From positions 67,993 to 131,992 of the forward strand of contig JAPLKL010000044.1 of NCBI GenBank assembly GCA_026388095.1: DNA of 64,000 bases, in the 5' to 3' direction. The DNA is from Elusimicrobiota bacterium. Lineage in GTDB: Bacteria; Elusimicrobiota; Elusimicrobia; UBA1565; UBA9628. The position numbers and the translations under genes were made by a program. Shown piece after piece: positions 2,958-30,912 of this stretch. Numbering within the stretch: the first letter of the stretch is position 1; each line of letters opens with the position of its first letter. The notes below the pieces were generated by a model that searched no databases, had not been told where the DNA came from, and saw only the letters and a list, made by a program, of their open reading frames with translations.

Positions 2958-3078
2958 GTCAGTATCCTTGTCTGAGATTTGGGCCGCGGTTTGGATTATG
3001 ATAACAGATTACACTTCCATTCGCACTCCTTGTGGGATCTTGCGCCGAGGGGCCTGCGCCATGCGTTCCGGGAGCAAA

Positions 3079-3087
3079 TGCTACAAT
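3079..3087 (+). promoter_or_regulatory. Extended -10 promoter, leaderless start of gene 3094
   Basis: TGc-TACAAT (hexamer 3082-3087) is followed by exactly six bases and the ATG at 3094. This predicts a transcript that begins at the start codon. No Shine-Dalgarno sequence is present. Confidence 0.6.
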
Positions 3088-3093
3088 CCCCCC

Positions 3094-3528
3094 ATGCGCG
3101 CTGGAGCCGGCTTGCGGGCGCTCTCCTTCTTGGCTCTCGTCGCGACGGCCGGGCTCAGCGGCTGCGCGGCGGCGGTCCCGGTCGCGGTCGCGGGAGCCGG
3201 CAGCGGGATCAGCTTCACCAGCACCACCGCCTATCGCTCCTTCACCTACCCCCAGGCTCAGGTCCACACGGCGGCCCTGCAGGCGCTCAGGCGCATGCAG
3301 ATCGCGAAGACCAAGGAGAAGAAGAGCGGCGAAGATATCGAGCTGAAGGGCAAGACCAAGCATCTGACCATCTACATCACTCTGGCTCCCATCACGCCTA
3401 CGGTCACGAAAGCGTCGATCAACGCGAAAAGGAATTGGCTGATGAAGGACCAGACCGTCGCGGCCGAGATCCTGATCCAGATGGATCAGATCCTGGGGGG
3501 CGCTGATGCGGCGCATCCGCCCCATTGA
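3094..3528 (+). CDS. Small lipoprotein, DUF3568-like
   Basis: A 144-residue protein with a clear lipoprotein signal peptide (LVATAGLSGC, Cys about 23) and then an AAAVPVAVAGAGSGISF segment typical of DUF3568-like lipoproteins. The mature part is a small alpha/beta domain with many Lys residues (KTKEKKSGEDIELKGKTK). The function is unknown; the protein should sit in the periplasmic leaflet or outer membrane. ATG 3094 is chosen over upstream in-frame starts because it gives a proper signal peptide and lies six bases after a TACAAT element. Confidence 0.65.
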   Translation: MRAGAGLRALSFLALVATAGLSGCAAAVPVAVAGAGSGISFTSTTAYRSFTYPQAQVHTAALQALRRMQIAKTKEKKSGEDIELKGKTKHLTIYITLAPITPTVTKASINAKRNWLMKDQTVAAEILIQMDQILGGADAAHPPH

Positions 3529-14703: not shown

Positions 14704-16367
14704 GCCGACCCGGCAGCACCGGACTCTGGCGCAAGGCCGCGGTGCTGGGCAGCCTCTGGGCCGCTTCGGAGATCGTCCTGGGCAGCTTCCTGCACAACGC
14801 GCGCATCCCCCTGAGCGGGAACATCCTCACCGGCATCGGCATCGCCATCCTGGTAGCCGGGCACAGGCTCTGGCCCCAGCGCGGCCTGCTCTGGCGCGCC
14901 GGGCTCATCTGCGCGGCCATGAAGTCCGTCTCTCCCAGCGCGGTCATCCTCTCACCCATGATTGCCATCTCCGTGGAGGGCTTCCTGCTGGAGGCGGGAG
15001 TGCTCCTGGGCGGAGCCAATCCCGCGGGCTATCTCCTGGCCGGAGGCCTGGCCATGTCCTGGCCCCTGGGGCATAGGCTCGGGGGCACCTTCCTCTATTA
15101 CGGCCCGCAGACCTGGACCCTCTACGTCAAAGGCCTGGAGCAGGTCCGCGCCTGGCTCCACCTCGCTCCGGGCAGCCCTTGGTCGCCGCTCCTGCTGCTT
15201 TGGTCCGCGCATCTTCTGGGCGGGGGCGCGGCCGCGGTCGCGGGCATGCGCGTTGGGTGGGAGGACGCTGTGACCGTTTCGTCGGCCGGGGCGGCCGCCC
15301 CGGCGCCGCGGCCGGCGGTTCCGGAGCATGGTGGATACTCTTTGACGGCGCTGCTCCTGCACGCCGCCACGGTGGCCGCGGCCATGTCGCTGGGCAGCAG
15401 GCTCCCGGTCTGGCTCTTCGCCGCGGCCTCGGCCGCCTACGCGTGGCTCTGCGTCTGGAAGTATCCCCGCGCGGCCGGGATCATGAAGCGGTCCAGTCTC
15501 TGGTCCGGCCTGCTCCTGGCCGCTGTGCTGGCGGGCCTGGTCCTAGGGCGCTGGCAGGCGGGCGCTCAGATGGGGCTGCGCGCGCTGGTCCTGACCTTGG
15601 GCTTCTCCTGCATCGGCACGGAGCTGCGCAATCCGGTCCTGCGCACGTGGCTGGAGCGCCGAGGCGGACGCATGTTCTTCGCGGCCCTGGAGCAGGCATT
15701 CGAATCCCTGCCCGCGGTGTTCACCGGCCTGCCGTCCCCGGCGCAACTGCTGCGCAGACCCGTGGCCTCATTGCACGCCGCCATCGCCTGCGCCCCGGCC
15801 CTGCTCGAGGCCCTGGCCCCGGGCCGAGTGCTCATCATCACCGGGGAGCAGGGAGAAGGGAAATCGAGCCTGGTCAAGACATCGGCGCAGGCCTTGCGCG
15901 AGGCGGGCGCAAGCCTCGGCGGCATCCACGCGCCGGGCTTCTGGGAAGAGGGCCGGCGCAGCGGCTTCGACATCACGGACCTGGGCACCGGTGAGAGTCG
16001 GCCGCTGTGCCGGACCCAGGGACCGGCGGGCTGGCCGGCTCAGGGGCCGTTCCGTTTCTCTCCCGACGGGCTCGCCTTCGGGCTGCGGGCGCTGGCCGAG
16101 GCCATGCGCCGCGACGCGGACGTCATCTTCGTCGACGAGGTCGGCCCCATGGAGCTCCGGGGCCTCGGCTGGGCGCCCGGCCTCGACGCTTTGGCGCGCC
16201 AGCGCCGCAAGCCCATGGTCTGGGTGGTGCGCAGGGCCCTGATCGACGAGGTCCGCAGGCATTGGGGCCTGGCCCCGGAACGGGTCTGGGACGCCGGAGC
16301 CGGCGATACCGCGGCCCTGGCGGCCGCGCTCCAGGCGGAGCTAGCGTCTAGCCTTGCTGTCCGCTAA
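14700..16367 (+). CDS. Membrane (ECF-like) plus THEP1-type NTPase fusion
   Basis: A 555-residue protein in three blocks. Residues about 1-185 have five to six membrane helices resembling an ECF-transporter S component (SEIVLGSFLHNARIPLSGNILTGIG). Residues about 210-370 are a second membrane block with ALRALVLTLGF-like and FESLPAVFTGLPS segments reminiscent of EcfT/CbiQ. Residues about 373-550 are a THEP1/NTPase_1 domain: P-loop ITGEQGEGKSSLV, GGIHAPGFWEEGRRSGFDI, Walker B FVDEVGPMELRG. NTPases of this group hydrolyse NTPs and lack the ABC signature. The layout suggests a one-chain uptake device using a THEP1 motor in place of EcfA ATPases; this is my inference. It is coupled to the DUF364 gene and ends tail-to-tail with the giant gene, overlapping it by 27 bases. 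Confidence 0.75.
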   Translation: MSRPGSTGLWRKAAVLGSLWAASEIVLGSFLHNARIPLSGNILTGIGIAILVAGHRLWPQRGLLWRAGLICAAMKSVSPSAVILSPMIAISVEGFLLEAGVLLGGANPAGYLLAGGLAMSWPLGHRLGGTFLYYGPQTWTLYVKGLEQVRAWLHLAPGSPWSPLLLLWSAHLLGGGAAAVAGMRVGWEDAVTVSSAGAAAPAPRPAVPEHGGYSLTALLLHAATVAAAMSLGSRLPVWLFAAASAAYAWLCVWKYPRAAGIMKRSSLWSGLLLAAVLAGLVLGRWQAGAQMGLRALVLTLGFSCIGTELRNPVLRTWLERRGGRMFFAALEQAFESLPAVFTGLPSPAQLLRRPVASLHAAIACAPALLEALAPGRVLIITGEQGEGKSSLVKTSAQALREAGASLGGIHAPGFWEEGRRSGFDITDLGTGESRPLCRTQGPAGWPAQGPFRFSPDGLAFGLRALAEAMRRDADVIFVDEVGPMELRGLGWAPGLDALARQRRKPMVWVVRRALIDEVRRHWGLAPERVWDAGAGDTAALAAALQAELASSLAVR

Positions 16368-19300
16368 AGTCCGAGGGAACTTGCGCTTGAGCAAGGACGC
16401 GATCTCGCGGGCCAGCAGCGCGCGGAAGCCCTCTTCGCTGACATAGCTCTCGCCGTAGAGGGTCATGAGGCCCTTGAAGGCCCCGAAGGTGAACTTCCCG
16501 TCCAGGCGCAGGCCCTGCTCGGTGAAGGCCGAGACCAAGGCGATGAGCCGGTCCGACATGCTGCCCTCGCCCGCGAGGACCTTGCGCAGCTCCTCCCTGA
16601 GCGCGGAGAGGTCCCGCGAGCCTCCTCCTCCCGCCATCGCCGCGCCGTGGAACAGGACCAGGTCCGCGTCCCGCTCCGAGAAAGCCCGCAGGAACTGGGC
16701 CAGCTCGTAGCGGTCGTCGCTCTGCCAGAAGCCCTTCTTGGAATAGGCCGCGGCCTGCCCGAAATCGATCGGATAGATGATCTTCTTCTCCGGGTCGATG
16801 AGCTGGTTGCCCGTGTGGCGGTCTGCGTCGAACCAGCCTTGGCGGAACAGCAGCGAGAGCGCCGAGTCCGCGATGAGCGGGCCGGCCTGGGCGCGCATCT
16901 CGGGGGACAGCTTGTCGTAGGTGGTGCCGGCGGCCTTCTCCATGAAGAGGATGGAGTCGCGGACCTGGAAGCCCTCGACCAGGTCCGGCACCGCGAAGCG
17001 CCAGCCTCCGAGCTTCGCGCGCATGGATGAGTTCAAGCCCTCGAAGTGCTTCTTGGCCGTGCGGATGCTCTCCGCTTCCTTGGTGAACTTGAGCTCCTCG
17101 GCCAGCTGCTGGCGCACGGCGTCGAGGACCGCGTCGAACATGGCCGAGGCCTGGCTCATGCCGATGTGGTCGAGCTCGCGCAGGAACTCCTGGCCCAGGC
17201 GCAGGTTGGTCTCGATCTGCTCGGCCGCGTGCGGCCGGCGCAGCAGCATCACCACCTCGCGGCCGTCCGTCAGCTCGACGACCACCACGGTCTTGAGGCT
17301 GGCGCTGCCGATGACCTTCTTCAAGGTCTTGATGCGGGCCAGCTCCTCCGGTGTGAGCTCGCGCTGCATGGCCTCCAGGATCTCGGCCTTGGTCATGGGC
17401 CGGGCGTCGTTCTTGAGCGAGGCCGTCTCCCGCGCCACCTCGTCGCCGAAGAGCTTCCAGGTCGAGCTCAGCTGTCCGAACTTGACCCCCACGGTCTGGA
17501 ACACCTCGAAGATGTGCTTGACGCTGCTCTTGTTCTCCCCGGCCTGGCTGAGCAGGTAGGCCAGGCTCACCGTCCTCTCGTGCGCGGGCACCACCCGCAG
17601 GTACGCCTTGAGCATCTTCTCCTCTTTGGAGTCCGGCTGGTACTGCAGGAAGGCGCGGGTGACGTTTTCCGGGAAATCCTCGGCGTTTTGCAGGGCCTGA
17701 CCGCCGGCGCTCAGGAGCAGCTCGAAGAGCGGGATGCGCTCGAAGGGCGAGGCGTCGATGAGCGCGGCCTCGATCTCCAGCTTCATGAGGTAGGCCGCCC
17801 GGTCCGACTCCTTCTTGATCTCGGCCTTGGAGCTGTGGCTGTCCTTGGCCGCGTCGATGGCCAGGGCCGCCGAATAGGCGTTGCGCTGCAGCTCCTTGAG
17901 GATGGGGTCGGGCAGCTCCCGGCCCTCGGGCTCGATGAGGAAGGCGATGAACTCGGAGCGGGCCTTGGGGGAGAGCTTGGCGATCTCTCCGGACAGGGCC
18001 GAGCCGAAGCGCAGGAGCATGGGGTTGGCCTTGCGCCAGTTGTAGGACTTCTCGTCCTCCACGAAAGCGCCCAGCTCCTTGCCGGAGAGGTTCAGGCGCC
18101 AGGCCAGGCTCTCGAGGTACTCGTCTTTCTTGAGCGAGCCCTGCCGCACGTAGGCGTTGATGGTCTCGATGAGGCGGTTCAAGCCCTCCGGGTCCTGCGG
18201 CTGGGACCGCAGGCGCGCGACCTCGGGTTCCAGCAGGCGGCGGGTCAAGGAGAGCTGCAGGCCGGAGCCCGCGATTCGGCCCTGCTCCAGGATGGCGGAG
18301 AGGGGCAGAGCCGCGGCCGCGGCCGCCGCGTCGTCGAAGGCCGGCTCCAGGCGCTTCTGGAAGAAGGCGTCCGTGGCCGGAGTGGCGCCGGTCCCGGTCA
18401 GGAGCCGGAAGAGCTTGAGCCGGCCCCGGAAATCCACCTCCAAGCCGGAGGCGAGCGCGGCGGCGCGGGTCTTGATGTCGCGCAGTTCCGGCGTGTTGAG
18501 GGTCTCGGGCGCCGGATAGTCGCCGTCGGCGGGGTCGGCCACCGCCTCCAGGAAGAGGATGAGCTGGGCGGCCTTGCCTTGGTCGGTGGACTCACGGGCC
18601 AGGGCCTGGTCCAGGCCGGAGAGCAGATCGTCTTTGAAGCCGCTCACGGCCGAGACGTAGCTCGAGTAGCCGTTCCCTTTGGCGGACTTGCGGAAATCAT
18701 CCCGGGCCAGGAGCCTGGCGAAAAGGTCCCGGGCGTCCTGGGCCAGGCCGTTCTTGACGAGCACGCGCAGCACCGTTTTGGAGCCTTCTCCCTCGCGCGA
18801 CAGCCAGGCTCCGGCCCGGTCGTAGGTCAGGCCGCTGACGCGCAGGTTCTCTTCATAACCTTCCAGGAACACGGCCTGGAGGAGCTCCTTCCTGTTCTCC
18901 GCGGACAGGGGGGAGCGGGAGAGCGCCTCGGCCTGCAGTCCCGCGAGCTCGCCTGAGACTCGCGCGCCTCCCACCAGGTCGTCCATGACCGAGCCGTGGA
19001 GCGCGCCCAGCTCTGCCACGCTCATGGGCTTGCCCGCGGCCTTGGCCAAAGCCGCGGCCAAAGCCCGGCCGTATTCATTCTGGAAGACCTCGCGGCGCGA
19101 CTGGTAATAGGACCCGGCGAAGAGCTGCTTGGCCAGCTTGTGCAGTTCGGGCTCGGCTTTCAGGCTCTCGTTGGAATCGGCCCGCAGATGCGGGCCCAAA
19201 GTGTCGTCGAGCCAGGAGAGCTCGCCGATCTTGCCCATGGGGTGGCCCATCTTGAGCATGCGGAAGGCGTCGAGGCTGCTGGCCTGGACGGTCTTGACCA

Positions 19301-21542
19301 CGCCCGCGTAGGCCGGGGTCTCGGCGAACGCCTTGACCGCCTGGCGCAGCTGGCTGCGGCCGGCCTGGGGGGCTATGCCGAGCACGGCGAAGATGGAGTC
19401 CCAATCCGTCACGTTGAAGGCCAGGATGAGGTCCAGCGTGCCGTAATAGCCCCGGTTGTCCCAGATGGACTGCAGCGCCTCGCGGTAGTCCTGCGCCAGG
19501 CCCTTGAGGCGCGGGTCGCCCATGAGGCGCATGCGCTGCTTGAGTATGCCCAGGCTGTAGTTCTTGGCCGTGGAATCGCGGCCCTCCGGGAACACGTAGG
19601 AGTAGGTGTCGTGCGTGGACTCGATGAAGAAGGCGATGCGCTCCTCGTGCGAGAGCCGGGGCATGACCTTCTTGTGGAAGAGCACGGCCAGGCGGGCTTG
19701 GAATTCCGGGGACTTGCCCTTGGCCACGGACTGGTCGTAGATGTAGCGGCTGCTGGTGAAGGAGCGCATGTTCGCGAGGAGCTCTTCGGCGATGCGGTCT
19801 GAGAAGAGAGCGAAGATGGGTGCGGAAGGCAGGATCTTGGCCAGCGCGTTGAGGCCTCTCTCGGCGCTGCCGTAGCTGGGGTCCGTCTTGGTGAAGTAGT
19901 TGGCCTGGACCCAGTCCAGGTAGCGCTGGCTGTTGTAGGCCGGGACCTTCTTCATGAAGGTCTCGTGCGAGGGATAGGCGAGGAACTCCTGGGAGTGGGT
20001 CTCCTCGGTGAAGATGAGGTTCATCCTCGCGCGGTCCGCGAGGTCGAGGCCGCCGCCCGGCTTGGCCAGCAGGCGGTTGATATCGGTGAAGAGGCGGAAC
20101 TCCTCGTCGCCGAGGTCGGCGCCTCGCTTGGCGAGCAGCGCGTCCACGCTCAAGACCAGGCGGTTGAACTCGACCTCCTTGTAGGCCGCGCCGCGCTTGA
20201 GTTCGGAGAGCTTCTGCAGGCGGGCGAGCGCCTCCGCGAGGTCCTTCGGGGCGTGGAAACGGCCGGCGGCGGCGCCCTGGTCGATGCCGGCGAGCTCGGA
20301 CAGGACCGCCGGCGGGACGTCCTCCGGGTAGGAGGGGATCCGGGTCCCCTTCTCGTAGCGGTCCATGGTCAGCAGCATGCGCTGCATGGCCAGGCGCAGG
20401 TCGTTCTGCGGGTGGGTGCTGGACATGGAGGAGAGGATCCCGCCTCTGTCCGCCTCGCCCGCGAAGAGGCGCTTGAGGGATTCGTAGACGCTGTCGACCG
20501 GGTAGCCCGCCTCCTTGGCGATCATGGCGCCTTCGGAGTCGGCGCGGACTTCCCGGGCCTGGCCGCCGATCTCCTTGCCGTAATTGGTCAGGATGCCCTC
20601 GGCGTCGATGTTGTCCAGGGGATGGGCCAGCTCATGGGACAGGACGCCTACGACGCGGACCAGGCCTGCCCTGAGCTGGGCCGGGTCGTCGCCCAGCATC
20701 TTCCTGAGCAGGCCGGTGGTCACGAAGACCAGGTTGCTGGAGCGGCGCACGCCCGCCGCCTTCATGGGATAGACGAAGGCGTTGAGCACGGGGGTGTCGA
20801 TGACATGGATATGGTTGATGGAGACCGCGTCGGCCGGGAAGAGCTTCTGCTGGGCCGCGCTGAGCCGGGAGAAGATCGTCTCCAGGACGGAGTAGAGGCC
20901 GGGCGCCTCGGCCCGGGCGATGACGGGTCCGAGCTCATCGGCGATCTTGTCGAGGACCTTCTGCTCGGCCGGGGAGGTCTTGAGCGGCGCGGGCTGGAGT
21001 GCCGCCGCCGCAGAGACTTGCGCCGAGGCTTCGGGGAAGTCGGCGGAAACCGCGGACTCGGCCGGCGTCTCTGATCCCAGGCGCGCCGCGCTGTAGAAAT
21101 TGTCAGCCGTGCCTTCCTTGGCCGAGGACACGTCCTTCTTCGCCGCGGTCTCGGCCGCCTGAGGCGCGTTCTCCAGGAGGCCCTGCAGGGGGGAGGCGGG
21201 CTTCTCGGGCGCGGGCGTCTGCGGCGCCTTGAGCTCCGCTGCGGGCGGGGTGATCGCAACCGGCAGGTCCGTCGCCGGCGTCAGCGCCGAAGGGGCCAGC
21301 TTGGGGACCGGGGCGCCGGGGAGGCCCTGGAGGGCTCCGGAGAGGGGCTGCAGCGAGGCGGCCGATGGGCCGGGCGAGAGCTGGCCGGAGCCTATGGTTG
21401 GGACCCCGACCACGGGCGCGGGCTGGACAACGGCTTCCTGGCCCGCGGTCTTGGTCTGTCCGGCGAGAAGGACCGGCGGCCAAGCCGAAGCCAAAAGCGC
21501 CCAGAGCGCGCCCCAGCGCAAGATTTTTCGCGCGAGAATCAC
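16341..21542 (-). CDS. Giant exported protein: M48-like metallopeptidase plus ABC1/UbiB kinase-like domain
   Basis: A 1733-residue protein starting at GTG 21542 with a signal peptide (ILRWGALWALLASAWPPVLLAG) and an Ala/Pro-rich stretch to about residue 190. Residues about 195-400 are M48-like, with VVGVLSHELAHPLDNID (HELAH at about 303) and a downstream acidic zinc-ligand candidate in REVRADSEGAM. A long alpha-helical middle follows (about 450-1330). Residues about 1340-1640 match the ABC1/UbiB fold: VGVKFGQLSS, GSASLKTV, ELKFTKEAESI, FDADRHTGNQL and PIDFGQA. The usual VAVKVQRP is VVMLLRRP, so the ATP-anchoring Lys is missing. An ABC1-like fold on an exported chain is unexpected. Function is unknown. 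Confidence 0.8.
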   Translation of the reverse strand: MILARKILRWGALWALLASAWPPVLLAGQTKTAGQEAVVQPAPVVGVPTIGSGQLSPGPSAASLQPLSGALQGLPGAPVPKLAPSALTPATDLPVAITPPAAELKAPQTPAPEKPASPLQGLLENAPQAAETAAKKDVSSAKEGTADNFYSAARLGSETPAESAVSADFPEASAQVSAAAALQPAPLKTSPAEQKVLDKIADELGPVIARAEAPGLYSVLETIFSRLSAAQQKLFPADAVSINHIHVIDTPVLNAFVYPMKAAGVRRSSNLVFVTTGLLRKMLGDDPAQLRAGLVRVVGVLSHELAHPLDNIDAEGILTNYGKEIGGQAREVRADSEGAMIAKEAGYPVDSVYESLKRLFAGEADRGGILSSMSSTHPQNDLRLAMQRMLLTMDRYEKGTRIPSYPEDVPPAVLSELAGIDQGAAAGRFHAPKDLAEALARLQKLSELKRGAAYKEVEFNRLVLSVDALLAKRGADLGDEEFRLFTDINRLLAKPGGGLDLADRARMNLIFTEETHSQEFLAYPSHETFMKKVPAYNSQRYLDWVQANYFTKTDPSYGSAERGLNALAKILPSAPIFALFSDRIAEELLANMRSFTSSRYIYDQSVAKGKSPEFQARLAVLFHKKVMPRLSHEERIAFFIESTHDTYSYVFPEGRDSTAKNYSLGILKQRMRLMGDPRLKGLAQDYREALQSIWDNRGYYGTLDLILAFNVTDWDSIFAVLGIAPQAGRSQLRQAVKAFAETPAYAGVVKTVQASSLDAFRMLKMGHPMGKIGELSWLDDTLGPHLRADSNESLKAEPELHKLAKQLFAGSYYQSRREVFQNEYGRALAAALAKAAGKPMSVAELGALHGSVMDDLVGGARVSGELAGLQAEALSRSPLSAENRKELLQAVFLEGYEENLRVSGLTYDRAGAWLSREGEGSKTVLRVLVKNGLAQDARDLFARLLARDDFRKSAKGNGYSSYVSAVSGFKDDLLSGLDQALARESTDQGKAAQLILFLEAVADPADGDYPAPETLNTPELRDIKTRAAALASGLEVDFRGRLKLFRLLTGTGATPATDAFFQKRLEPAFDDAAAAAAALPLSAILEQGRIAGSGLQLSLTRRLLEPEVARLRSQPQDPEGLNRLIETINAYVRQGSLKKDEYLESLAWRLNLSGKELGAFVEDEKSYNWRKANPMLLRFGSALSGEIAKLSPKARSEFIAFLIEPEGRELPDPILKELQRNAYSAALAIDAAKDSHSSKAEIKKESDRAAYLMKLEIEAALIDASPFERIPLFELLLSAGGQALQNAEDFPENVTRAFLQYQPDSKEEKMLKAYLRVVPAHERTVSLAYLLSQAGENKSSVKHIFEVFQTVGVKFGQLSSTWKLFGDEVARETASLKNDARPMTKAEILEAMQRELTPEELARIKTLKKVIGSASLKTVVVVELTDGREVVMLLRRPHAAEQIETNLRLGQEFLRELDHIGMSQASAMFDAVLDAVRQQLAEELKFTKEAESIRTAKKHFEGLNSSMRAKLGGWRFAVPDLVEGFQVRDSILFMEKAAGTTYDKLSPEMRAQAGPLIADSALSLLFRQGWFDADRHTGNQLIDPEKKIIYPIDFGQAAAYSKKGFWQSDDRYELAQFLRAFSERDADLVLFHGAAMAGGGGSRDLSALREELRKVLAGEGSMSDRLIALVSAFTEQGLRLDGKFTFGAFKGLMTLYGESYVSEEGFRALLAREIASLLKRKFPRTLADSKARR

Positions 21543-21557: not shown

Positions 21558-21762
21558 GTCCTTGGACCTCTCTTCCGCCAGGGGCCGCTGGGGCAGTCAT
21601 CAGCCGGAAAAAGGACGGTTCGGCTTTAGGCCCTAGGACCCACCGGCACGGGACCTCGAAGATAAAATTTTGGTAACGAGGGTTTTCCCTATTGCGCGCC
21701 GGGACGGCAGGGGCTACACTTTTGTTAAGCGCGGCCCTCGCGCCCGGCGGATATCAAACCCT

Positions 21763-24075
21763 ATGCGCAAGTCGATGCCCCGCAGCACAGCATTCCTGGC
21801 GGCCGCGCTCTTGGCGCTGGCCAGCGTCTGCGCCGCACACGACCACGGGGGCGGTGGCGGCCAAGGGCGCGGCGGCGATCAGGGGGGCGGCCGCGGAGGC
21901 GGGCAAGGTCAGGATGGCGGGCGCGGGGGCGGCGGGTACGGGGGTGGTCGCGGGGGAGATCGCCACGATGGTGATCATGATGAAGGGCAGAAAAGGCCGC
22001 CGACCATTCTAGATAGCATCAAGTCCTTCCTCTTCCCGAGCCCTCCCGCGGCCGCAAGCGGGATCGCAACCACGCCGACTCCCGCAACCCCGGCAGCCAT
22101 CGCCCCGCCGGCCGCCGTGACACCGACCTCGCCGATCGCCACCGCCGCGCCCCAGTCCGCTCCGGCTCCGACTGTCCAGGCCCCGCGGCCGGACCGGCCG
22201 ACGCCCCAGGCGCCGTCGGCGCCGACCGCGGCCAGACCGGCGCCGTCCACCCCCCCGGGAGCTGCGCGGCCCATGGTCGGCCCGGCCGATATCAAGGCCG
22301 CGGTGAACGCGGGCAAGAGCGGGTTGGCCGCCATCCCCCAGTCGCCCCAGACCGTGGCGGCGGGCCAAGCGCTGGACCAGTTCGGGGGGCTGGCCGCCTA
22401 CCTGCTGGAATCCGCGGCCGCCCTCGTGTCCAGCGCTGAGGGGGCGCGCCAGGACCCCAAGGCGGGGCAGACCCAGGCCGCGCAGGCCAAATCCGGCTCA
22501 GCGCCTCTCTCCCAGGCTTCCGGCGGCGCTGTGGCCAGCGCGACGCCGCTGCAGAGCGGCGGGCTCAACACCCTCGAAGCCGGCTCCGGGATCCCCCGTA
22601 TCCCGACTGCGGAGGCTGCCGGCTCCAAGCCCCAAAGCTCCGGCGCCATCAGCCCGACGCCGGGGGCTTCGGGCTCCAGCATCCCAGAGGGGGGCGCGCC
22701 CATTCTGGGGTCGGAGGACCCCGAGGATGCGGCGGCGAAGAACGCCCGGGAGGTGCTCCTGGAGACCGCCAAGCTCCTGGACGCCAACCCCAACGACGCC
22801 AAGGCGCGCGCGGACCGGGCCGAGGCGCTGGCGCAGCTCGGCGACTACGACTCGGCCGTGGAGGAGGCCGGCAAGGCCCTGAAACTGGCCCCGGACTCCA
22901 TCAAGGCCCTCAACGCCCGCGCCTTCGCCTACAACAAGCGCGGCCATTACGACCTCGCTCTGCAGGACGCGGACGCGGTCATCAAGCTCGCGCCCGACAA
23001 CGCTCTGGGCCACCTCAACCGCGCCATGGCTTTGGAGGGGCTGGGCAACCCGGCCGAGGCCCTTCAGGAGTACGTCCTGGCCGCCCAGCTCGACCCGTCC
23101 CTGAAGACCTTCCTCGCCGACGCGCAGGCCAGGCGGGAGGCGCCGGCCGGGTCCGGGAAGGCGGGGGCGGGCCGCGCCGAGGTCTGGGCCTTGGGCGCGC
23201 TGCTGGCCGCCGGACTGCCGCTGGGGCTCTGGGCTCGGCGCCGGTCCAAGGCCGCGCGGGCTGCGAAGACCGCGAGAGTGGACGTGGGCACGGTCATCGG
23301 GTCCAATTACCGCATCGAGAGGCTCATCGGCGAGGGCGGCATGGGCAAGGTCTTCGAGGGCTTCGACACGGCCATCCGGCGCAAGGTCGCCATCAAGATG
23401 ATGCGCGCGGAGCTGCGCCGCGAGATCGGCGACGAGCAGATCCTCGAGGAGGCGCGCTTGGTGGCCTTGGTGCGGCATCCCAACGTCGTGGAGATCTACG
23501 CGGCCCTGCAGGAGGCGGGGGAGATATTCCTGGTCTTCGACTTCGTGGCGGGCCTCCCCCTATACGACCTGCTGCTTTCCAAGCGCCGGCTCTCCTTGCC
23601 CGAAGCCGCGCATATCCTGGGCCAGGTGGCGGCGGGGCTCGATGTCGCCCATGCCAAGCAGGTCATCCATCGCGACCTCAAGCCGGCCAACGTGGTGATA
23701 TCCAACGAGGGCGTGGCCAAGCTGATGGATTTCGGCATCGCCCACCGCTCCAGCAACGGGGGCTCACAGGAGACTTTGGACAAGACCTTGGGGACCATGC
23801 CCTACATGGCTCCGGAGCAGCACGACGGCACGGTGTCCAAGGAGAGCGACCTCTACGCTCTGGGCGTGATGGCCTACGAGCTGCTCACCGGCCGGCGCCC
23901 CTTCGAAGGGCCGGAGCAGCTGCGTCACAAGCGGGAGGGCCGCTTCATGCCGGCGAGCGCGGTCGCCCCGGACCTGCCGCCGAGCATCGACGCGGCGCTG
24001 GCCCGGGCCCTGTCGCCGCGGCCCGAGGACCGCTTCCACTCCGGCTCCGAGTTGGTCGCCGCGCTCCTAGGCTGA
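21763..24075 (+). CDS. Membrane Ser/Thr protein kinase with exported TPR region
   Basis: A 770-residue protein. It has a signal peptide or anchor (STAFLAAALLALASVCAA), a His/Gly-rich tract (about 24-70), a Pro/Ala-rich linker, and three TPR repeats (about 345-446: DANPNDAKARADRAEALAQ, GDYDSAVEEAGKALKLAPDS and so on). A membrane helix (about 474-492) precedes Arg/Lys residues and a C-terminal Hanks kinase (about 510-770). Kinase motifs are intact: GEGGMGKV, VAIKMM, HRDLKPANV, DFGIA and MAPEQ. The order is reversed from most bacterial kinases, with sensor N-terminal and outside and kinase C-terminal and inside. Start 21763 gives the signal peptide directly; no clear ribosome site is seen. Confidence 0.85.
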   Translation: MRKSMPRSTAFLAAALLALASVCAAHDHGGGGGQGRGGDQGGGRGGGQGQDGGRGGGGYGGGRGGDRHDGDHDEGQKRPPTILDSIKSFLFPSPPAAASGIATTPTPATPAAIAPPAAVTPTSPIATAAPQSAPAPTVQAPRPDRPTPQAPSAPTAARPAPSTPPGAARPMVGPADIKAAVNAGKSGLAAIPQSPQTVAAGQALDQFGGLAAYLLESAAALVSSAEGARQDPKAGQTQAAQAKSGSAPLSQASGGAVASATPLQSGGLNTLEAGSGIPRIPTAEAAGSKPQSSGAISPTPGASGSSIPEGGAPILGSEDPEDAAAKNAREVLLETAKLLDANPNDAKARADRAEALAQLGDYDSAVEEAGKALKLAPDSIKALNARAFAYNKRGHYDLALQDADAVIKLAPDNALGHLNRAMALEGLGNPAEALQEYVLAAQLDPSLKTFLADAQARREAPAGSGKAGAGRAEVWALGALLAAGLPLGLWARRRSKAARAAKTARVDVGTVIGSNYRIERLIGEGGMGKVFEGFDTAIRRKVAIKMMRAELRREIGDEQILEEARLVALVRHPNVVEIYAALQEAGEIFLVFDFVAGLPLYDLLLSKRRLSLPEAAHILGQVAAGLDVAHAKQVIHRDLKPANVVISNEGVAKLMDFGIAHRSSNGGSQETLDKTLGTMPYMAPEQHDGTVSKESDLYALGVMAYELLTGRRPFEGPEQLRHKREGRFMPASAVAPDLPPSIDAALARALSPRPEDRFHSGSELVAALLG

Positions 24076-24486: not shown

Positions 24487-24585
24487 TGACCAAGGGTTGA
24501 GGTTGCCGCGCCGCGTCAAGCACCTCAAGAAAGTGACCATAGCCGTTGTTGGATGATTCCCGCGCTGGCAATGGCAGGGCCTCTC

Positions 24586-24594
24586 TGTTATAAT
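24586..24594 (+). promoter_or_regulatory. Extended -10 promoter, leaderless start of gene 24601
   Basis: TGt-TATAAT is a perfect extended -10; its last base is six bases before the ATG at 24601. It is the clearest example of the leaderless promoter pattern in the window. Confidence 0.7.
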
Positions 24595-24600
24595 CCGGGC

Positions 24601-26625
24601 ATGAATTGTCCGAAATGCGCGGAACAATCCCTGGAAGAGCGGCTCGGCCCGAGCGGCATACTCGTGGACCTGTGCTCCGCCTGCGGCGGGGTCTGGCTCG
24701 ACAAAGGCGAGATTTACAATTACGTCCGGTACCCGCAGACGCTCCATGACGATCTCGTCAAAGCCTATGGCGACACCGCCCCGGGGCTGCGGCCGTGCCC
24801 GCGCTGCCAGGTGAAGATGACGCAGGCCAGGTTCCCCGCTCCGGGCCCGGTCATCGACGCCTGTCCGCAATGCGGCGGCAATTGGTTCGACGCGGGAGAG
24901 GTGGCGGCGCTGCAGTCCATGCTCGACCTGGAGCTGCGGCCCGAGCCTGAAGCCAAGCCGGCCGCGCCGGCCCCGGCCCCTGCCGCGGTTCCGGGGCGGG
25001 CGGTGGTCATGGCCGCTTTGCCCAGCCTGGCCCTGCGCTCCGGGGGAGTGTTACTCGCTCTCTACGCCGTCCTCATGGGCTTCTGCGCCGCGGCCGTGGC
25101 GTATCTCAAGCTGCCCCTAGACTATATCTTCATCGGCTCGGCCGCGGCCTTGCTGCTGAGCTTCATCTTGGGGCCCTGGTTCACGGACCTGAGCCTGCGC
25201 TGGTTCCACGAGTTCCGCTGGGTCGACGCCGCGGACCTGCCCGAGCACTTGCGCGGCTTCATCAGCAAGGCCTGCCGCGACCGAGGCATCCCGTTCCCGA
25301 GGTGCGGGATCATAGACGACGGCAACCCCAACGCCTTCACCTACGGCCATTATCCGGGCGACGCGCGCCTGGTCCTGACCCGCGGCGTCATGGATATCCT
25401 GGAGCCCGGGGAGCTGGAGGCCGTGGCCGGCCACGAGCTCGGCCATATCGCGCACTGGGACATGCTGGTCATGACCGCCGCCGCCTTGGTGCCCATGGTC
25501 CTCTACACCATCTACAAGGTGTGCTGCCGCCGCAAGCCCTCCTCCTCGGGCAGCCGCAAAGGCCGGGGGCAGGTCTTCCTCATCGGCATGACGGCTCTGC
25601 TCCTCTACTACGTCACGGAGTACGTGGTGCTCTTCCTGTCGCGCGTGCGCGAGCTCTACGCGGACCGCTTCTCAGGGGAGCTCACGCGGCAGCCCAACAG
25701 CCTGGCCTCGGCCTTGGTCAAGATCGCCTACGGCCTGGCCGGGCGGCGTCCGGATCCGAAGGAGGAGGAGTCGGCGACCCACGAGACCGTGCGCGCGCTG
25801 GGCATATTCGACCCGGTCGGCGCCTTGGGCTTGGTGGCGGCTTCGCTCTCGCGCGCCGGAGCCCCGTCCAAGGAGAACATCCTGGGCGCCATGCAGTGGG
25901 ACCTCTGGAATCCCTGGGCCAAATACTATGAGCTGCAGTCCACGCATCCTCTTCCCGCGCGGCGTCTGGAGCAGCTGGGCCGCCAAGCCGCGGCCTACGG
26001 GCAGGAGCCTTACGTGGACTTCGACCTGCGCCAGCCGGAGAGCTACTGGGACGAGTTCCTCGTGGACCTGGGCTTCCTCTGGCTGCCCTGGCTCATGGCC
26101 GGTGCCGCGGTGCTCTCCAACTCTCTGGCCGGCATCCACGGGGCCCAGACTTGGTGGGGCGCGGCCGCGGGCTGGGGCGCGGGCAGCCTATGCCGGCTGT
26201 GGTTCAAGTACCGCGGCGGCTTCTGCCCGGATATGACGGTGAGCGCCGTGCTCAAGAAGGTGAAGGTCTCGGGAGTGCGCGGCGTGCCCGCGGCGCTGCA
26301 GGGCCGGGTCATCGGCCGCGGGGTCCCGGGCTTCATCGTCTCGGAGGACCTGGTCCTGCAGGATAAGACCGGCTTCATCCTGCTCGACTACCGCCAGCCT
26401 CTGGCCGTCTTCCAGTGGATCTTCGCCATCGGGCGGGTGCCCGGGCTCATCGGCCAGGAGCTCAGCGTGAAGGGCTGGTACCGGCGCGCTCCGGTGCCCT
26501 ATCTGGAACTGCGCTCTTTCGTCTGCGACGGCAAGGAGAGCACCTGCTACAGCCTCGAGGGGCAGTACGTGTTCGCGTTCCTGGCGCTGGCCGCCGGGGT
26601 GCTGGGGATGCTCGGGATGTTCTGA
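24601..26625 (+). CDS. Zinc-ribbon M48 family membrane metalloprotease
   Basis: A 674-residue membrane protein. Two zf-TFIIB-type zinc ribbons open it: CPKC...CSACGGVWLDKGE (residues 3-40) and CPRC...CPQCGGNWFDAGE (about 62-100). After an Ala/Pro linker come two membrane helices, then an M48 peptidase domain with VAGHELGHIAHWD (about 275-287), a further membrane helix and the zinc-ligand region ELYADRFSGEL. A C-terminal membrane-associated part (about 480-674) follows. HtpX-like enzymes degrade misfolded membrane proteins. The start is chosen by the promoter six bases away and by the first ribbon beginning at once (MNCPKC). The U32-like gene starts two bases after the stop. Confidence 0.88.
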   Translation: MNCPKCAEQSLEERLGPSGILVDLCSACGGVWLDKGEIYNYVRYPQTLHDDLVKAYGDTAPGLRPCPRCQVKMTQARFPAPGPVIDACPQCGGNWFDAGEVAALQSMLDLELRPEPEAKPAAPAPAPAAVPGRAVVMAALPSLALRSGGVLLALYAVLMGFCAAAVAYLKLPLDYIFIGSAAALLLSFILGPWFTDLSLRWFHEFRWVDAADLPEHLRGFISKACRDRGIPFPRCGIIDDGNPNAFTYGHYPGDARLVLTRGVMDILEPGELEAVAGHELGHIAHWDMLVMTAAALVPMVLYTIYKVCCRRKPSSSGSRKGRGQVFLIGMTALLLYYVTEYVVLFLSRVRELYADRFSGELTRQPNSLASALVKIAYGLAGRRPDPKEEESATHETVRALGIFDPVGALGLVAASLSRAGAPSKENILGAMQWDLWNPWAKYYELQSTHPLPARRLEQLGRQAAAYGQEPYVDFDLRQPESYWDEFLVDLGFLWLPWLMAGAAVLSNSLAGIHGAQTWWGAAAGWGAGSLCRLWFKYRGGFCPDMTVSAVLKKVKVSGVRGVPAALQGRVIGRGVPGFIVSEDLVLQDKTGFILLDYRQPLAVFQWIFAIGRVPGLIGQELSVKGWYRRAPVPYLELRSFVCDGKESTCYSLEGQYVFAFLALAAGVLGMLGMF

Positions 26626-26626
26626 C

Positions 26627-27832
26627 ATGAAAGCGGCCGTGTTCTCGCTGGCGGCGAACTACGATCCGGAACTGGTCCCGGCGCTCGCCGCCTACCCGGT
26701 CGACGAGGTCTACGGCAAGTTCCCCGCCGACGGCGTCAGCGGCGGCCGGCCCCGCTACCTGGCGACCCCGCTCTCGGAGGCGGAACTGCGGCGTTACATC
26801 GGCCTGCTCGACCGTCACGGCATCGCCTTCAATTATCTCCTCAACGGCGCTTGTTTCGGCAACCACGAATGGACGCGGCCCTGGCAGAAGCGGATGACGG
26901 CCCTGTTGACCAAGCTGGGCGACCTGGGTGTGCGCCGGGTCACCGTCTCCACCCCTTTTCTCCTGGAACTGGTCAAACGCCGCTTCCCGAAGTTCAAGGT
27001 CAGGGTCGGGATCTACGCCCAGGTGGACACGCCCCGGCGCGCCCGCTTCTGGGAAGAGCTCGGGGCGGACGCGCTCACGCTGGAGAGCTTCTCGATCAAC
27101 CGGGACTTCCGCCGGTTGGCGGCCATCCGCCAGGCGGTCCGCTGCGACCTGCAGCTCATAGCGAACCATGTCTGCCTGCTGAACTGCCCTCTGCAGACCT
27201 ATCATCAGAACGGCTTTGCGCACGCGTCCGACGGGACCGGCACGCTCTTCATCGACTACTGCTTCCTGCGCTGCTCGCGGACGCGCTTGACGGACCCGTC
27301 GCAGTTCATCAAGGCGGCATGGATCCGGCCGGAGGACATCGCCGCCTACGCAGCGATGGGCTACAAGACGTTCAAGCTCCTGGAACGGGGGCTCCCGTCG
27401 GCGGAGCTGCTGCGGCGCGTCAAAGCCTACAGCGAGGGGCGGTTCGCCGGCAACCTGGCCGAGCTGCTGCTGTCGCATGGCTTGAAGGAGCCGCTGCGCA
27501 AGGAATCGTTCTGGACCCTGCGTCACTTCTGGAAGCCGCGGCAGGCCAATCCCTTGCGGCTGAAACCGCTGCTCGATTTGGCGCGACTGCAAGGCATGCT
27601 CTCGCCGCTGCCGGAGTGTCCCATCCGGATCGACGCGCGGAAGATCCCGGAGGATTTCCTGGACGGTTTCCGCAACCGCGACTGCGCCTCCCTGGACTGT
27701 CAGGCCTGCGGCTATTGCGAGCGGATCGCCGCGCAGGCTGTTTCGATCTCGCCCGGGTACCGCGCCGAGGTGCTGGGGAAGTACGCGGAGATCGACGAGA
27801 CCATGGCCGCGGGAGGGCTCTGGGGTGTCTGA
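26627..27832 (+). CDS. U32 peptidase-like Fe-S protein (UbiU/UbiV relative)
   Basis: A 401-residue cytoplasmic protein of the U32/PF01136 superfamily, a TIM-barrel group that includes UbiU/UbiV (O2-independent hydroxylation) and RlhA/TrhP (RNA hydroxylation). ADALTLESFSINRDFRRL and GYKTFKLLERGLPS mark the barrel. Cys residues likely to hold a [4Fe-4S] cluster are in CLLNCP (about 183-187) and YCFLRC (about 212-216). An extra C-terminal motif, CASLDCQACGYC (about 354-365), could bind a second cluster. It is followed, with an eight-base overlap, by a type III PKS and then a methyltransferase, so a small-molecule role (hydroxylation of a polyketide) is more likely than proteolysis. It may be co-transcribed with the upstream protease. 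Confidence 0.75.
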   Translation: MKAAVFSLAANYDPELVPALAAYPVDEVYGKFPADGVSGGRPRYLATPLSEAELRRYIGLLDRHGIAFNYLLNGACFGNHEWTRPWQKRMTALLTKLGDLGVRRVTVSTPFLLELVKRRFPKFKVRVGIYAQVDTPRRARFWEELGADALTLESFSINRDFRRLAAIRQAVRCDLQLIANHVCLLNCPLQTYHQNGFAHASDGTGTLFIDYCFLRCSRTRLTDPSQFIKAAWIRPEDIAAYAAMGYKTFKLLERGLPSAELLRRVKAYSEGRFAGNLAELLLSHGLKEPLRKESFWTLRHFWKPRQANPLRLKPLLDLARLQGMLSPLPECPIRIDARKIPEDFLDGFRNRDCASLDCQACGYCERIAAQAVSISPGYRAEVLGKYAEIDETMAAGGLWGV

Positions 27833-28958
27833 TTCGCGCGCCGCGCCGCGCCGGGCCCGCCTCTACGGGCTGGGCACGGCCTTGCCCCCGCACCAAGCGG
27901 GCCAGCCGGTCGTCAAACGCTTCATGGCCTCTTTGGCCGCGGCCACGCTCAAGGGCCGCCGGCGCGCGGTCACCCTCGATTTCCTCGACAAGATCTACGC
28001 CTCTTCGGGGATCGCCAAGAGGCACAGCGTCCTGGCCGACTACACCAAGGACTCCCCCGAGGACTTCGAATTCTATCCGCCCAACTGGGCCTTGGAGCCC
28101 TTCCCGACCACGGCGGCGCGCATGAAGGTCTACGAAAAATGGAGCGTCGACTTGGCGGAGCAGGCTTGCCGCAAGGCTCTGCGCGAGTCGGGCGCCCAGC
28201 CCGCCGAGGTCACCCACTTGGTCTTCACGACCTGCACGGGGCTTTTCGCCCCGGGCCCCGACATCCTGCTCATCGGCCGTCTGGGGCTGGAGCCCCGGGT
28301 GCACCGGGCGGTGCTGGGCTTCATGGGCTGCTACGCGGGCTTCACCGGCATGAGGATGGCCGGGCAGATCCTGGGGGCCGAGCCCGAGGCCGTGGTCCTG
28401 CAGGTCTGCGTCGAGCTCTGCAGCCTGCATTTCCAGAAGCGGGCCCTGCCCGACTTCATCGTGGCCAACAGCCTCTTCGCCGACGGCGCGGCCGCCGCGG
28501 TCTACGCCCGGCCCGGCCGGTTCCAGAAGGGGCTGGCGGATTTGGCGGCCACCCACAGCCGAGTCGAAAAGGACAGCCTGGAGCATATGTCCTGGCGCAT
28601 CGGGTCCTCGGGCTTCGAGATGCGCCTGGACCGCGAGGTGCCCGCGCGCCTCAAGACCGCCGCGCCGGGCTTCGTCGCGGAGCTTCTGGGCCGCGCCGGG
28701 CTCAAGCCGGGAGGCAACGCCTGGGCCATCCACCCCGGGGGACGCAAGATCGTCGCGGAGGTCCAGTCCGCGCTGGGCCTGACCGGCTCGCAGGTGCGAT
28801 CCTCGCTCGAGGTCTTGAGCTCCTGCGGCAACATGTCGAGCGGGACCATCTTCTTCGTCTTGGACCGCGAGCTGCGGCGGGGCTCGCGAAGCCCCGTCGC
28901 GGCCCTGGGATTCGGGCCGGGGCTCACCATGGAGGGAGCCGTGCTCTTCAGGCCTTGA
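27825..28958 (+). CDS. Type III polyketide synthase (chalcone/stilbene synthase family)
   Basis: A 377-residue homodimeric-type ketosynthase using acyl-CoA starters and malonyl-CoA. The catalytic triad is visible: Cys in GFMGCYAGFTG (about 169), His in AIHPGGRK (about 303) and Asn in SSCGNMSSGT (about 335). Bacterial members make alkylresorcinols, alkylpyrones or tetrahydroxynaphthalene. GTG 27825 has GGGAGG eight bases upstream and overlaps the previous gene by eight bases; the next gene overlaps by four bases. A PKS plus methyltransferase pair is typical of methylated phenolic lipids or pyrones. The starter unit cannot be read from the sequence. Confidence 0.92.
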   Translation: MSDSRAAPRRARLYGLGTALPPHQAGQPVVKRFMASLAAATLKGRRRAVTLDFLDKIYASSGIAKRHSVLADYTKDSPEDFEFYPPNWALEPFPTTAARMKVYEKWSVDLAEQACRKALRESGAQPAEVTHLVFTTCTGLFAPGPDILLIGRLGLEPRVHRAVLGFMGCYAGFTGMRMAGQILGAEPEAVVLQVCVELCSLHFQKRALPDFIVANSLFADGAAAAVYARPGRFQKGLADLAATHSRVEKDSLEHMSWRIGSSGFEMRLDREVPARLKTAAPGFVAELLGRAGLKPGGNAWAIHPGGRKIVAEVQSALGLTGSQVRSSLEVLSSCGNMSSGTIFFVLDRELRRGSRSPVAALGFGPGLTMEGAVLFRP

Positions 28959-29707
28959 GCGCTCGCGCCTGGCCGGACTTCGCCGCGCGCAGCCAGGCCC
29001 TCGAGCTCATCGACGCCTCCGGCCTGGATTCGGCGGAGCTGGCCGAGACTCTAAGGGAGTTGGCCTTCATCAACTCGGCCTTGGGAGGCTACGGCACGAC
29101 CTTGGGCGCGCTGGAGCGCCTCATCCCGCCCGGCTGCCGGGAGTTCGACGTCCTGGACGTGGGCTCGGGGGGGGGCGACACGGCGCGGCGCATCGTGGAG
29201 TGGGCGCGCCGGCGGGGCCTGACCGCGCGCGTGCACGGCATCGACCGCGCGCCGGAGGCCGCGGCTTGCGCGCGCCGCGGCGCCGCCGGCCTGCCCGGCC
29301 TCGAATTCTCCGCCCAGGACCTCTTCGACCTGCCCCCCACGAGGAGATACGACATCGTGCACGCGGCCTTGCTCCTGCACCACCTGCCCGACGAGGCGGC
29401 GGTCAGGGCCTTGGCCAGGATGTACGAGCTCTGCCGCTGGGGGCTGGTGATCAACGACCTGCACCGGCACCCGGCCGCCTATTGCTCCATCAAGTGGCTG
29501 ACGGCCCTTCTTTCGAAGAACCGCCTCATCCGTCACGACGCCCCGCTCTCGGTGCTGCGCGCTTTCCGCAGGTCGGAACTCGAGGACCTGGCGCGCCGCG
29601 CCGGCTTGCCCGCCCCCGAGATATCCTGGCGCTGGGCCTTCCGCTGGCGCATGGTCGTCCGCAGATACATCCGCTCCCAGGGCGGACCCGGGATCCTACC
29701 ACCCTGA
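28955..29707 (+). CDS. SAM-dependent methyltransferase partner of type III PKS
   Basis: A 250-residue class I methyltransferase. Motif I is VLDVGSGGGDTARRIVE, followed by the acidic IDRAPEA and the DIVHAALLLHHL region. The reading frame begins with TTG 28955, which overlaps the PKS stop as TTGA; no in-frame ATG or GTG gives a full N-terminus. It probably O- or C-methylates the polyketide made by the preceding enzyme. Some related clusters also carry a flavin-dependent reductase; here the extra gene is the U32-like Fe-S protein instead. Confidence 0.85.
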   Translation: MSARAWPDFAARSQALELIDASGLDSAELAETLRELAFINSALGGYGTTLGALERLIPPGCREFDVLDVGSGGGDTARRIVEWARRRGLTARVHGIDRAPEAAACARRGAAGLPGLEFSAQDLFDLPPTRRYDIVHAALLLHHLPDEAAVRALARMYELCRWGLVINDLHRHPAAYCSIKWLTALLSKNRLIRHDAPLSVLRAFRRSELEDLARRAGLPAPEISWRWAFRWRMVVRRYIRSQGGPGILPP

Positions 29708-29775: not shown

Positions 29776-30912
29776 ATGAAAGAATTGTGCGTGGGGATCC
29801 TGTTGACGTCCATCCTCGGGTGTTCATCGGCTCCGACGGGCGCAGGCCAAGCGCCGGCCGCTCGTGATGGATCATCCGGCGAGCAGATCGCGCCGGATGA
29901 GGGCGCGTTGGTCGCGGAGATAGCTGAGCTGAGCCAGGCCAGACTCAAAAAAGATGGAGCCCAGAATCAGGGGCTGATGACGCGCGACGTCCACGCCAAG
30001 CAGCATGGCTGCGTCCGCGCGACATTCACGGTGGACAAGGACGTCCCGGCGGACCTCCGCGCGGGGGTCTTCGCCGAGCCGGGGAAGGAATATGCGGCGT
30101 GGATCCGCTTTTCCAGCGGCGGTCCCAAGATCCAGGATGACAAAGCGGCCGATGCCCGCGGCATGGCCGTCAAGCTCATGGGAGTCGCCGGGGAGAAGCT
30201 CCTGGAGAGCGAAAAGGGCGCCAGGACCCAGGATTTCCTGATGCTCAACCACGACGCCTTCTTCATCAAGGACAGCAAGGACTATGTCGAGTTCTTCGAG
30301 CTGGTCGCCAAGGGCTCGAGCCCGGCCTGGTTCTTCTTCGGCCGGCTGCCTTGGCGCTGGACCGAGTTCTCCGCGGCTCTCCAGCTCGCGAGGAAGGGAA
30401 AGAAGATGGTGAGCCCGCTGTCTTCCCCTTATTTCAGCACGACCCCCTACTTGCTGGGCGAAAAGAACGTGATCAAGTTCTCCGCGCAGCCCTGCTCCGG
30501 GAGCCCGGACCCGCGGAACCACTTCGCCGGCTCGCCGGACTACCTGCGCCTGAACATGCAGAGGTCACTGGATGTCCGGGATGGGAAGCCCGCCTGCTTC
30601 CGATTCATGGTGCAGAAGCGCTCTGATCCGGAGACCATGCCGGTGGAAGACGCGCGCATCCCCTGGGACCAACGCAAGTCCGCGTTCATCCCCGTCGCGA
30701 CCGTCACCATCCCCGTCCAGGAATTCTTGGGCGCAAGCCAGATGCGCTTCTGCGAGAACCTCTCGTTCACTCCCTGGCACAGCCTGCCCGCGCACCGGCC
30801 TCTGGGCAACATCAACAGGGCCAGGAAAGTGGTTTACGAGGCGGTCTCGAAGTTCCGCCACGATTACAATCACGAAGTCCGACGGGAACCGGACGCCGGC
30901 GACAACCCTTAG
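29776..30912 (+). CDS. Catalase-superfamily lipoprotein
   Basis: A 378-residue protein with a lipoprotein signal (LLTSILGC, Cys about 16). The body resembles catalase-like heme proteins: RDVHAKQHGCVRATFTV (distal His region), KEYAAWIRFSSGGPKIQDD, DFLMLNHDAFFIKDSKDY and the C-terminal HRPLGNINRAR. The canonical proximal RxFxYxDTQ tyrosine motif of true catalases is not seen, so activity may differ (lipid peroxide or peroxidase-type chemistry). It would be anchored in the envelope. GGAGG (29763-29767) lies eight bases before the ATG. It is convergent with the aldehyde dehydrogenase gene, with a three-base gap. Confidence 0.8.
   Translation: MKELCVGILLTSILGCSSAPTGAGQAPAARDGSSGEQIAPDEGALVAEIAELSQARLKKDGAQNQGLMTRDVHAKQHGCVRATFTVDKDVPADLRAGVFAEPGKEYAAWIRFSSGGPKIQDDKAADARGMAVKLMGVAGEKLLESEKGARTQDFLMLNHDAFFIKDSKDYVEFFELVAKGSSPAWFFFGRLPWRWTEFSAALQLARKGKKMVSPLSSPYFSTTPYLLGEKNVIKFSAQPCSGSPDPRNHFAGSPDYLRLNMQRSLDVRDGKPACFRFMVQKRSDPETMPVEDARIPWDQRKSAFIPVATVTIPVQEFLGASQMRFCENLSFTPWHSLPAHRPLGNINRARKVVYEAVSKFRHDYNHEVRREPDAGDNP

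Follow-up and report, generated by a model that had tools for sequence, protein, structure and literature searches.

How might the ring of a polyketide lipid be hydroxylated where oxygen is scarce or absent? The question is raised by an operon in a 64,000-nucleotide stretch of DNA (hereafter, the window) from a member of the Elusimicrobiota (contig JAPLKL010000044.1), in which a gene for a protein of the Peptidase U32 superfamily overlaps that of a type III polyketide synthase (PKS), which in turn overlaps that of a methyltransferase (MT). An initial annotation, made from the sequence alone, had proposed an anaerobic route in which the polyketide ring is hydroxylated without O2 and methylated. 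Our analysis supports this proposal, and both of the refuting checks set by the annotation fell out in its favour: the U32 protein lies outside the RNA-modifying groups of its superfamily, and PKS-MT pairs carry a U32 gene in several phyla. In sister operons, moreover, its place is taken by a flavin monooxygenase. Because of this last observation, anoxic ring hydroxylation is the simplest reading, and we consider it likely that the U32 protein hydroxylates the ring independently of O2, either as a substitute for the flavin monooxygenase or as a backup to it. The operon comprises the following genes:

26627..27832, + strand: U32-superfamily protein of 401 amino acids (PF01136 above cut-off), a putative O2-independent ring hydroxylase, horizontally acquired
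27825..28958, + strand: type III PKS of 377 amino acids (GTG start, stop 28956-28958; PF00195/PF02797), triad Cys169/His303/Asn336
28955..29707, + strand: S-adenosylmethionine (SAM)-dependent MT of 250 amino acids (TTG start, stop 29705-29707; Methyltransf_25), nearest to PRK06202

Operon architecture and gene families

The open reading frames and the DNA confirmed the gene overlaps described in the initial annotation, of eight bases between the U32 and PKS genes and four between the PKS and MT genes, as well as its intact PKS triad, with Cys169 in GCY, His303 in IHPGG and Asn336 in CGN. This triad and the thiolase-fold family match (101 and 71 bits for Chal_sti_synt_N and Chal_sti_synt_C, above cut-off) place the enzyme among the type III PKSs, and its nearest solved relatives are Steely1, PKS III and PKS18. 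The MT scores 53.9 bits against Methyltransf_25, above cut-off, and 173 bits against NF004851, under the equivalog cut-off of 243.

The srsABC operon of Streptomyces and the pkqABC operon of mycobacteria are comparable systems, in which a flavin hydroxylase and an MT turn the PKS resorcinol into quinones (PMC9927152, PMC5916927). Like them, the window has a tight operon of three genes, with a type III PKS, an MT and a third oxidative enzyme, and its PKS-MT pair is orthologous in sister species; unlike them, it has a U32 protein instead of an O2-dependent flavin hydroxylase. To score the latter, we searched 32 genomes with a profile of flavin adenine dinucleotide (FAD) enzymes linked to PKS genes, with a threshold of E<=1e-15, and at this threshold the window genome has no match; the U32 gene occupies the place.

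The U32 gene and the flavin monooxygenase gene

In the relatives of the window, the orthologous PKS-MT pairs lack U32 and carry a FAD_binding_3 monooxygenase, an architecture that is exactly that of the Srs/Pkq operons. Its gene lies directly upstream of the PKS gene, in the exact slot of U32, at L074 and L075 (both from the same genus as the window), L077 and L079, and downstream of the MT gene at L076, L078, L080, L081 and L082. The same three enzyme classes make up the MT-FAD oxidoreductase-type III PKS operons of Planctomycetota and cyanobacteria (hidABC), where the PKS makes alkylresorcinols (PMC10896814); they differ from the window in that no U32 is reported there, and the product of the full operon is not shown for Planctomycetota.

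The two gene types exclude each other within the PKS operon. No match to the FAD profile was found in any of the 14 genomes that have U32 inside a PKS operon (mostly U32-MT-PKS; the window genome is included, as is G355, whose MT match is weak and more distant), and the FAD enzyme was present in all nine genomes whose U32 gene stands outside any U32-MT-PKS operon, either alone or beside a second PKS without an MT. In eight of these nine (G342, G344, G345, G346, G349, G351, G354 and G358) the FAD gene belongs to a separate PKS-MT operon, and in G341 it is a fragment of 57 residues at a contig end. The Fisher p for absence (14/14) versus presence (9/9) is 1e-6; this and all later p values are nominal, the genomes being related, the counts non-independent and most genomes metagenome-assembled (MAGs). 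On the PKS tree, the window PKS is nested within the PKSs of FAD operons (support 100/97), and the partner must have changed between FAD and U32 four times or more. That these partners were swapped independently around one PKS-MT core is what chiefly suggests that both enzymes do equivalent jobs. In the window, a horizontally acquired U32 gene occupies the place that relatives give to the O2-dependent flavin monooxygenase; in aerobes elsewhere, it is a separate gene that coexists with this enzyme.

The upstream type of flavoprotein, represented by L074, obtains its best scores against aromatic hydroxylase models (HpxO, 3-hydroxybenzoate 6-monooxygenase and the UbiH family). The downstream type, which U32 also replaces, is closer to geranylgeranyl reductases and QhpG than to phenol hydroxylases, which would suit a U32 protein acting as an O2-independent oxidoreductase at another step of the same pathway, such as reduction, dehydroxylation, side-chain desaturation or quinol regeneration; the mechanism of U32 proteins is, moreover, not understood (PMC11574389). 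We regard this alternative as unlikely, given that the flavoprotein found in the very slot of U32 is the one that scores as an aromatic hydroxylase and that every characterised Fe-S U32 protein is a hydroxylase (PMC11574389).

Chimeric origin of the operon

The PKS and MT of the window are 82-90% and 75-81% identical, respectively, to those of the nearest sister operons, while the PKS and MT beside most foreign U32 genes are only ~30% identical to them. For this reason, the U32 gene and the PKS-MT pair of the window differ in origin, and an import of the pair together with U32 was rejected. At the DNA level, similarity to the foreign U32 loci spans 26641 to ~27846 and then ends, and similarity to the sister PKS-MT genes runs from 27851 to 29660. 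The following feature marks the boundary:

27825..27846, + strand: recombination scar, consisting of the GTG start and first six codons of the PKS gene (VSDSRA), which match donor MT starts (V/M-S/F-D-x-R-A); join at ~27847-27851

The VSDSRA start is unlike the N-termini of sister PKSs and like those of the MTs that follow U32 in donor-type operons (VSDTRAT, VFDSRAT, MFDSRAT). Taken together, the breakpoint and this match indicate that the transferred piece consisted of the U32 gene and the first six codons of a donor MT. As judged from its sequence, the operon is therefore a chimera of a foreign U32 gene with six donor MT codons and a native PKS-MT pair, in which the donor MT start codon evidently now serves as the PKS start, and the U32 gene was evidently acquired from another phylum.

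Distribution of the U32 gene

A scan of 84,980 species genomes yielded 28 U32 loci, most of them 70-90% identical. U32 proteins in this range of identity come from at least five other phyla (Verrucomicrobiota, Lentisphaerota, Acidobacteriota, Thermodesulfobacteriota and Ignavibacteriota, together with a 'Proteobacteria' MAG), and the MAG labels include Opitutae, Limisphaerales, Lentisphaerae, Acidobacteriaceae, Desulfobacteraceae and Ignavibacteriae. Among 341 genomes of the window's own phylum, five others match U32, all in a branch ~36-39% identical, and none of the same-genus genomes does. Identity at four-fold sites between the window U32 and other close copies is 59-78%, compared with ~45-50% for the most diverged members; much of the similarity therefore reflects recent descent and not slow evolution alone.

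The initial annotation had suggested searching for the trio in other organisms. In MAGs of Lentisphaerota, Verrucomicrobiota, Thermodesulfobacteriota and others, U32 does recur with PKS and MT, start and stop overlapping in the same way, and because of this recurrence across phyla the arrangement is not due to chance. The order U32-MT-PKS, with a short overlap after U32, is found at L011, L015, L016, L018, L021, L022, L035, L094, L095, L158 and others. A type III PKS was matched in 19 of 19 genomes tested that carry a close U32 (one match being under cut-off); for comparison, a PKS above cut-off occurs in 26 of 57 relatives of the window and in 93 of 338 Verrucomicrobiota.

So wide a horizontal spread could also mean that U32 travels for unrelated reasons, for instance as a low-oxygen stress gene, and comes to lie beside PKS operons accidentally or as part of a common cargo, the more so as stand-alone copies adjoin unrelated genes (phosphoketolase, aldolase, cation ATPase) and some look broken (L030, L032, L034). 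However, the stand-alone copies always occur with a type III PKS, mostly with a full PKS-MT-FAD operon, and those at L009, L013, L017 and L024 keep the same remnant of an MT start as the window, which is why they appear to derive from a U32-MT operon. We consider mere hitchhiking very improbable.

A plasmid search with the U32 protein gave no match, and no carrier element was found. At L023, L030, L032 and L034, which come from peat MAGs, the stand-alone U32 gene has internal deletions or frame breaks of varying size, attributable to decay or assembly error. At L014, L017 and L024 it adjoins genes for a phosphoketolase, a class I aldolase, a cation ATPase, an AI-2E transporter or an alpha/beta hydrolase; these neighbours are partly common between loci and resemble a transferable low-oxygen gene set.

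Superfamily placement and cysteines of the U32 protein

Following another suggestion of the initial annotation, we placed the U32 protein on a tree with UbiU, UbiV, RlhA and TrhP. It separates from the RNA-modifying TrhP and RlhA in a clade of its own (support 100/100), with UbiU, TrhP and RlhA across a long branch; UbiV was unplaceable on this tree (branch length 5.7), and a profile comparison gave no credible match to it. The window protein matches no NCBIfam model, including NF047963/NF047965 for UbiU/UbiV and NF011996 for TrhP, while the control UbiU, UbiV and E. coli TrhP proteins match theirs. It is neither UbiU nor UbiV. The nearest clade is a group from Thermodesulfobacteriota with 41-44% identity, in which four of six loci lie near a PKS. 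The nearest solved sequence to the family profile is MK0906 (PDB 5d88; E 2e-16), a protein of unknown function matched over ~155 residues only; an AlphaFold2 model from a 17-member alignment is of low confidence (mean pLDDT 55), and its top Foldseek match is still 5d88.

The best profile match among E. coli U32 proteins is TrhP (probability 95%, E 1.5e-8), with which, as with RlhA, the U32 barrel region can be aligned. Since RNA modification is common among U32 functions, the window protein might hydroxylate RNA as TrhP or RlhA do, its adjacency to the PKS gene being incidental. This seems to us highly implausible in view of the adjacency and start-stop overlap that recur in several phyla, the presence of a PKS in all 19 genomes, the mutual exclusion of operon-borne U32 and the FAD enzyme, the separate clade, and the four further U32 genes above the Pfam cut-off that the window genome holds. 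Operon context and cysteine arrangement also differ from those of TrhP and RlhA.

The initial annotation had assigned eight cysteines of the U32 protein to cluster-like motifs, with an extra C-terminal set. The protein has 11 cysteines in total, and two sets of four can indeed be recognised:

27173..27274, + strand: core set C183-X3-C187-X24-C212-X3-C216, invariant in the alignment; candidate [4Fe-4S] ligands
27683..27718, + strand: C-terminal set C353-X4-C358-X2-C361-X2-C364, invariant in the alignment; candidate second cluster

Both sets, together with C76 and C173, are unchanged across 17 homologues, down to 38% identity, and the C-terminal set is not seen in the aligned E. coli U32 proteins. 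The spacing of the core set deviates from the CX6CX15CX3/4C published for Fe-S U32 hydroxylases (PMC6747719).

A sister branch of U32 proteins, ~38% identical and with the same cysteine sets, often consists of two adjoining genes (L067, L068, L070, L071, L165-L168), which at L067, L068 and L071 lie inside clusters that also encode several radical SAM proteins, B12-binding ones included. These radical-SAM-associated relatives were excluded as a different branch.

Association with terminal oxidases

The occurrence of terminal oxidases correlates, though not absolutely, with the arrangement of U32. A haem-copper oxidase is present in nine of nine genomes in which U32 and the FAD enzyme coexist and in three of the 14 with U32 in the operon (p 3e-4); eight of these 14 are without both haem-copper and bd oxidases. 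In a sample of Verrucomicrobiota, for which the oxidase and PKS lists were matched by hand, haem-copper oxidase was found in 0 of 8 U32-operon genomes and 30 of 41 other strong-PKS genomes (p 1.7e-4).

Several observations weigh against O2-independent hydroxylation by U32, besides the relatedness of the sampled genomes and the resemblances of the downstream-type flavoprotein. The window genome itself has both haem-copper and bd oxidases; G003 and G004, of the same genus, carry the FAD enzyme with bd oxidase only and no haem-copper oxidase; and several Verrucomicrobiota genomes without a detected COX1 have FAD-like genes near the PKS. UbiU and UbiV work as a pair, with UbiT, and the U32 gene of the window is single. 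Its protein belongs to the Peptidase U32 superfamily through a PF01136 match of 25.5 bits (cut-off 22.4) aligned over residues 89-149 only, and its core cysteines, C-X3-C-X24-C-X3-C, fit neither the published hydroxylase pattern nor a close variant. Finally, attempts to demonstrate what the FAD gene does in Planctomycetota did not succeed (PMC10896814).

Proposed pathway

In Streptomyces and mycobacteria, the resorcinol made by a type III PKS is methylated and hydroxylated or oxidised to a benzoquinone, a polyketide quinone that is used under low oxygen (PMC9927152, PMC5916927). U32 proteins, for their part, contain Fe-S clusters and hydroxylate independently of O2; in ubiquinone synthesis, the oxygen comes from prephenate (PMC6747719, PMC11574389). 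The window operon would be an O2-independent version of the PKS, MT and flavin hydroxylase operon represented by srsABC and pkqABC. Judging from the operon type, the PKS would use a fatty acyl starter to build an alkylresorcinol or a similar ring; the MT, given its family, would methylate this ring; and U32, given the slot that it fills, would add a ring hydroxyl without O2. UbiU/UbiV, TrhP and RlhA have been proposed to rely on a [4Fe-4S] cluster and to take oxygen from an organic donor such as prephenate, and the window protein probably acts in the same manner. The pathway would end in an alkyl-phenol or alkyl-benzoquinone, methylated and hydroxylated, that could serve as a redox carrier in the membrane; the chances that it is a quinone are about even. 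The operon suggests that bacteria do not need oxygen to produce methylated polyketide lipids of a quinone-like kind.

UbiU/UbiV offer the closest parallel, as members of the same superfamily that also take the place of flavin monooxygenases when O2 is absent; the window U32 differs from them by its own clade, extra C-terminal cysteine set, core spacing, single gene, and polyketide instead of prenyl-benzoate pathway. What is new here is that, in a known three-gene pathway, the O2-dependent enzyme has given way to a protein from a previously unreported branch of a known enzyme superfamily. Full-text searches, whose coverage excluded subscription papers and preprints, found no paper that connects U32 proteins to type III PKS operons. 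A broader proposal, for and against which we see equal odds, is that this branch is a new U32 subfamily of single-protein, two-cluster, O2-independent polyketide-phenol hydroxylases, and that an anaerobic polyketide-quinone route has spread horizontally across phyla, repeatedly displacing the flavin monooxygenase.

In the known route, hydroxylation falls to a flavin enzyme of an O2-dependent class, although the resulting quinones reportedly serve mycobacteria and Streptomyces as electron carriers in oxygen-poor niches; an O2-free U32 step, if true, would resolve this tension and extend quinone-like polyketides to anaerobes. The exchange between U32 and flavin enzymes would mirror that of UbiI/H/F and UbiU/V in ubiquinone synthesis, and a one-protein hydroxylase with a small soluble-ring substrate would be available for studying the unexplained C-H hydroxylation chemistry.

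Neighbouring genes

An M48 peptidase with two N-terminal zinc ribbons (24553-26625, + strand) ends one base before the U32 start and for this reason may be co-transcribed with the operon; it was rejected as a component of the system, not being present beside other U32 loci. Further upstream, a single protein combines TPR repeats with a serine/threonine protein kinase domain (21670-24075, + strand), and ~5 kb from the operon an unusual protein of 1733 amino acids (16341-21542, - strand) joins an M48 peptidase domain to a C-terminal ABC1/UbiB-type atypical kinase domain. Directly downstream of the trio lies a catalase-family protein (29776-30912, + strand), a homologue of which, 39% identical, is encoded upstream of the L021 trio (2423-3427), which may be a coincidence.

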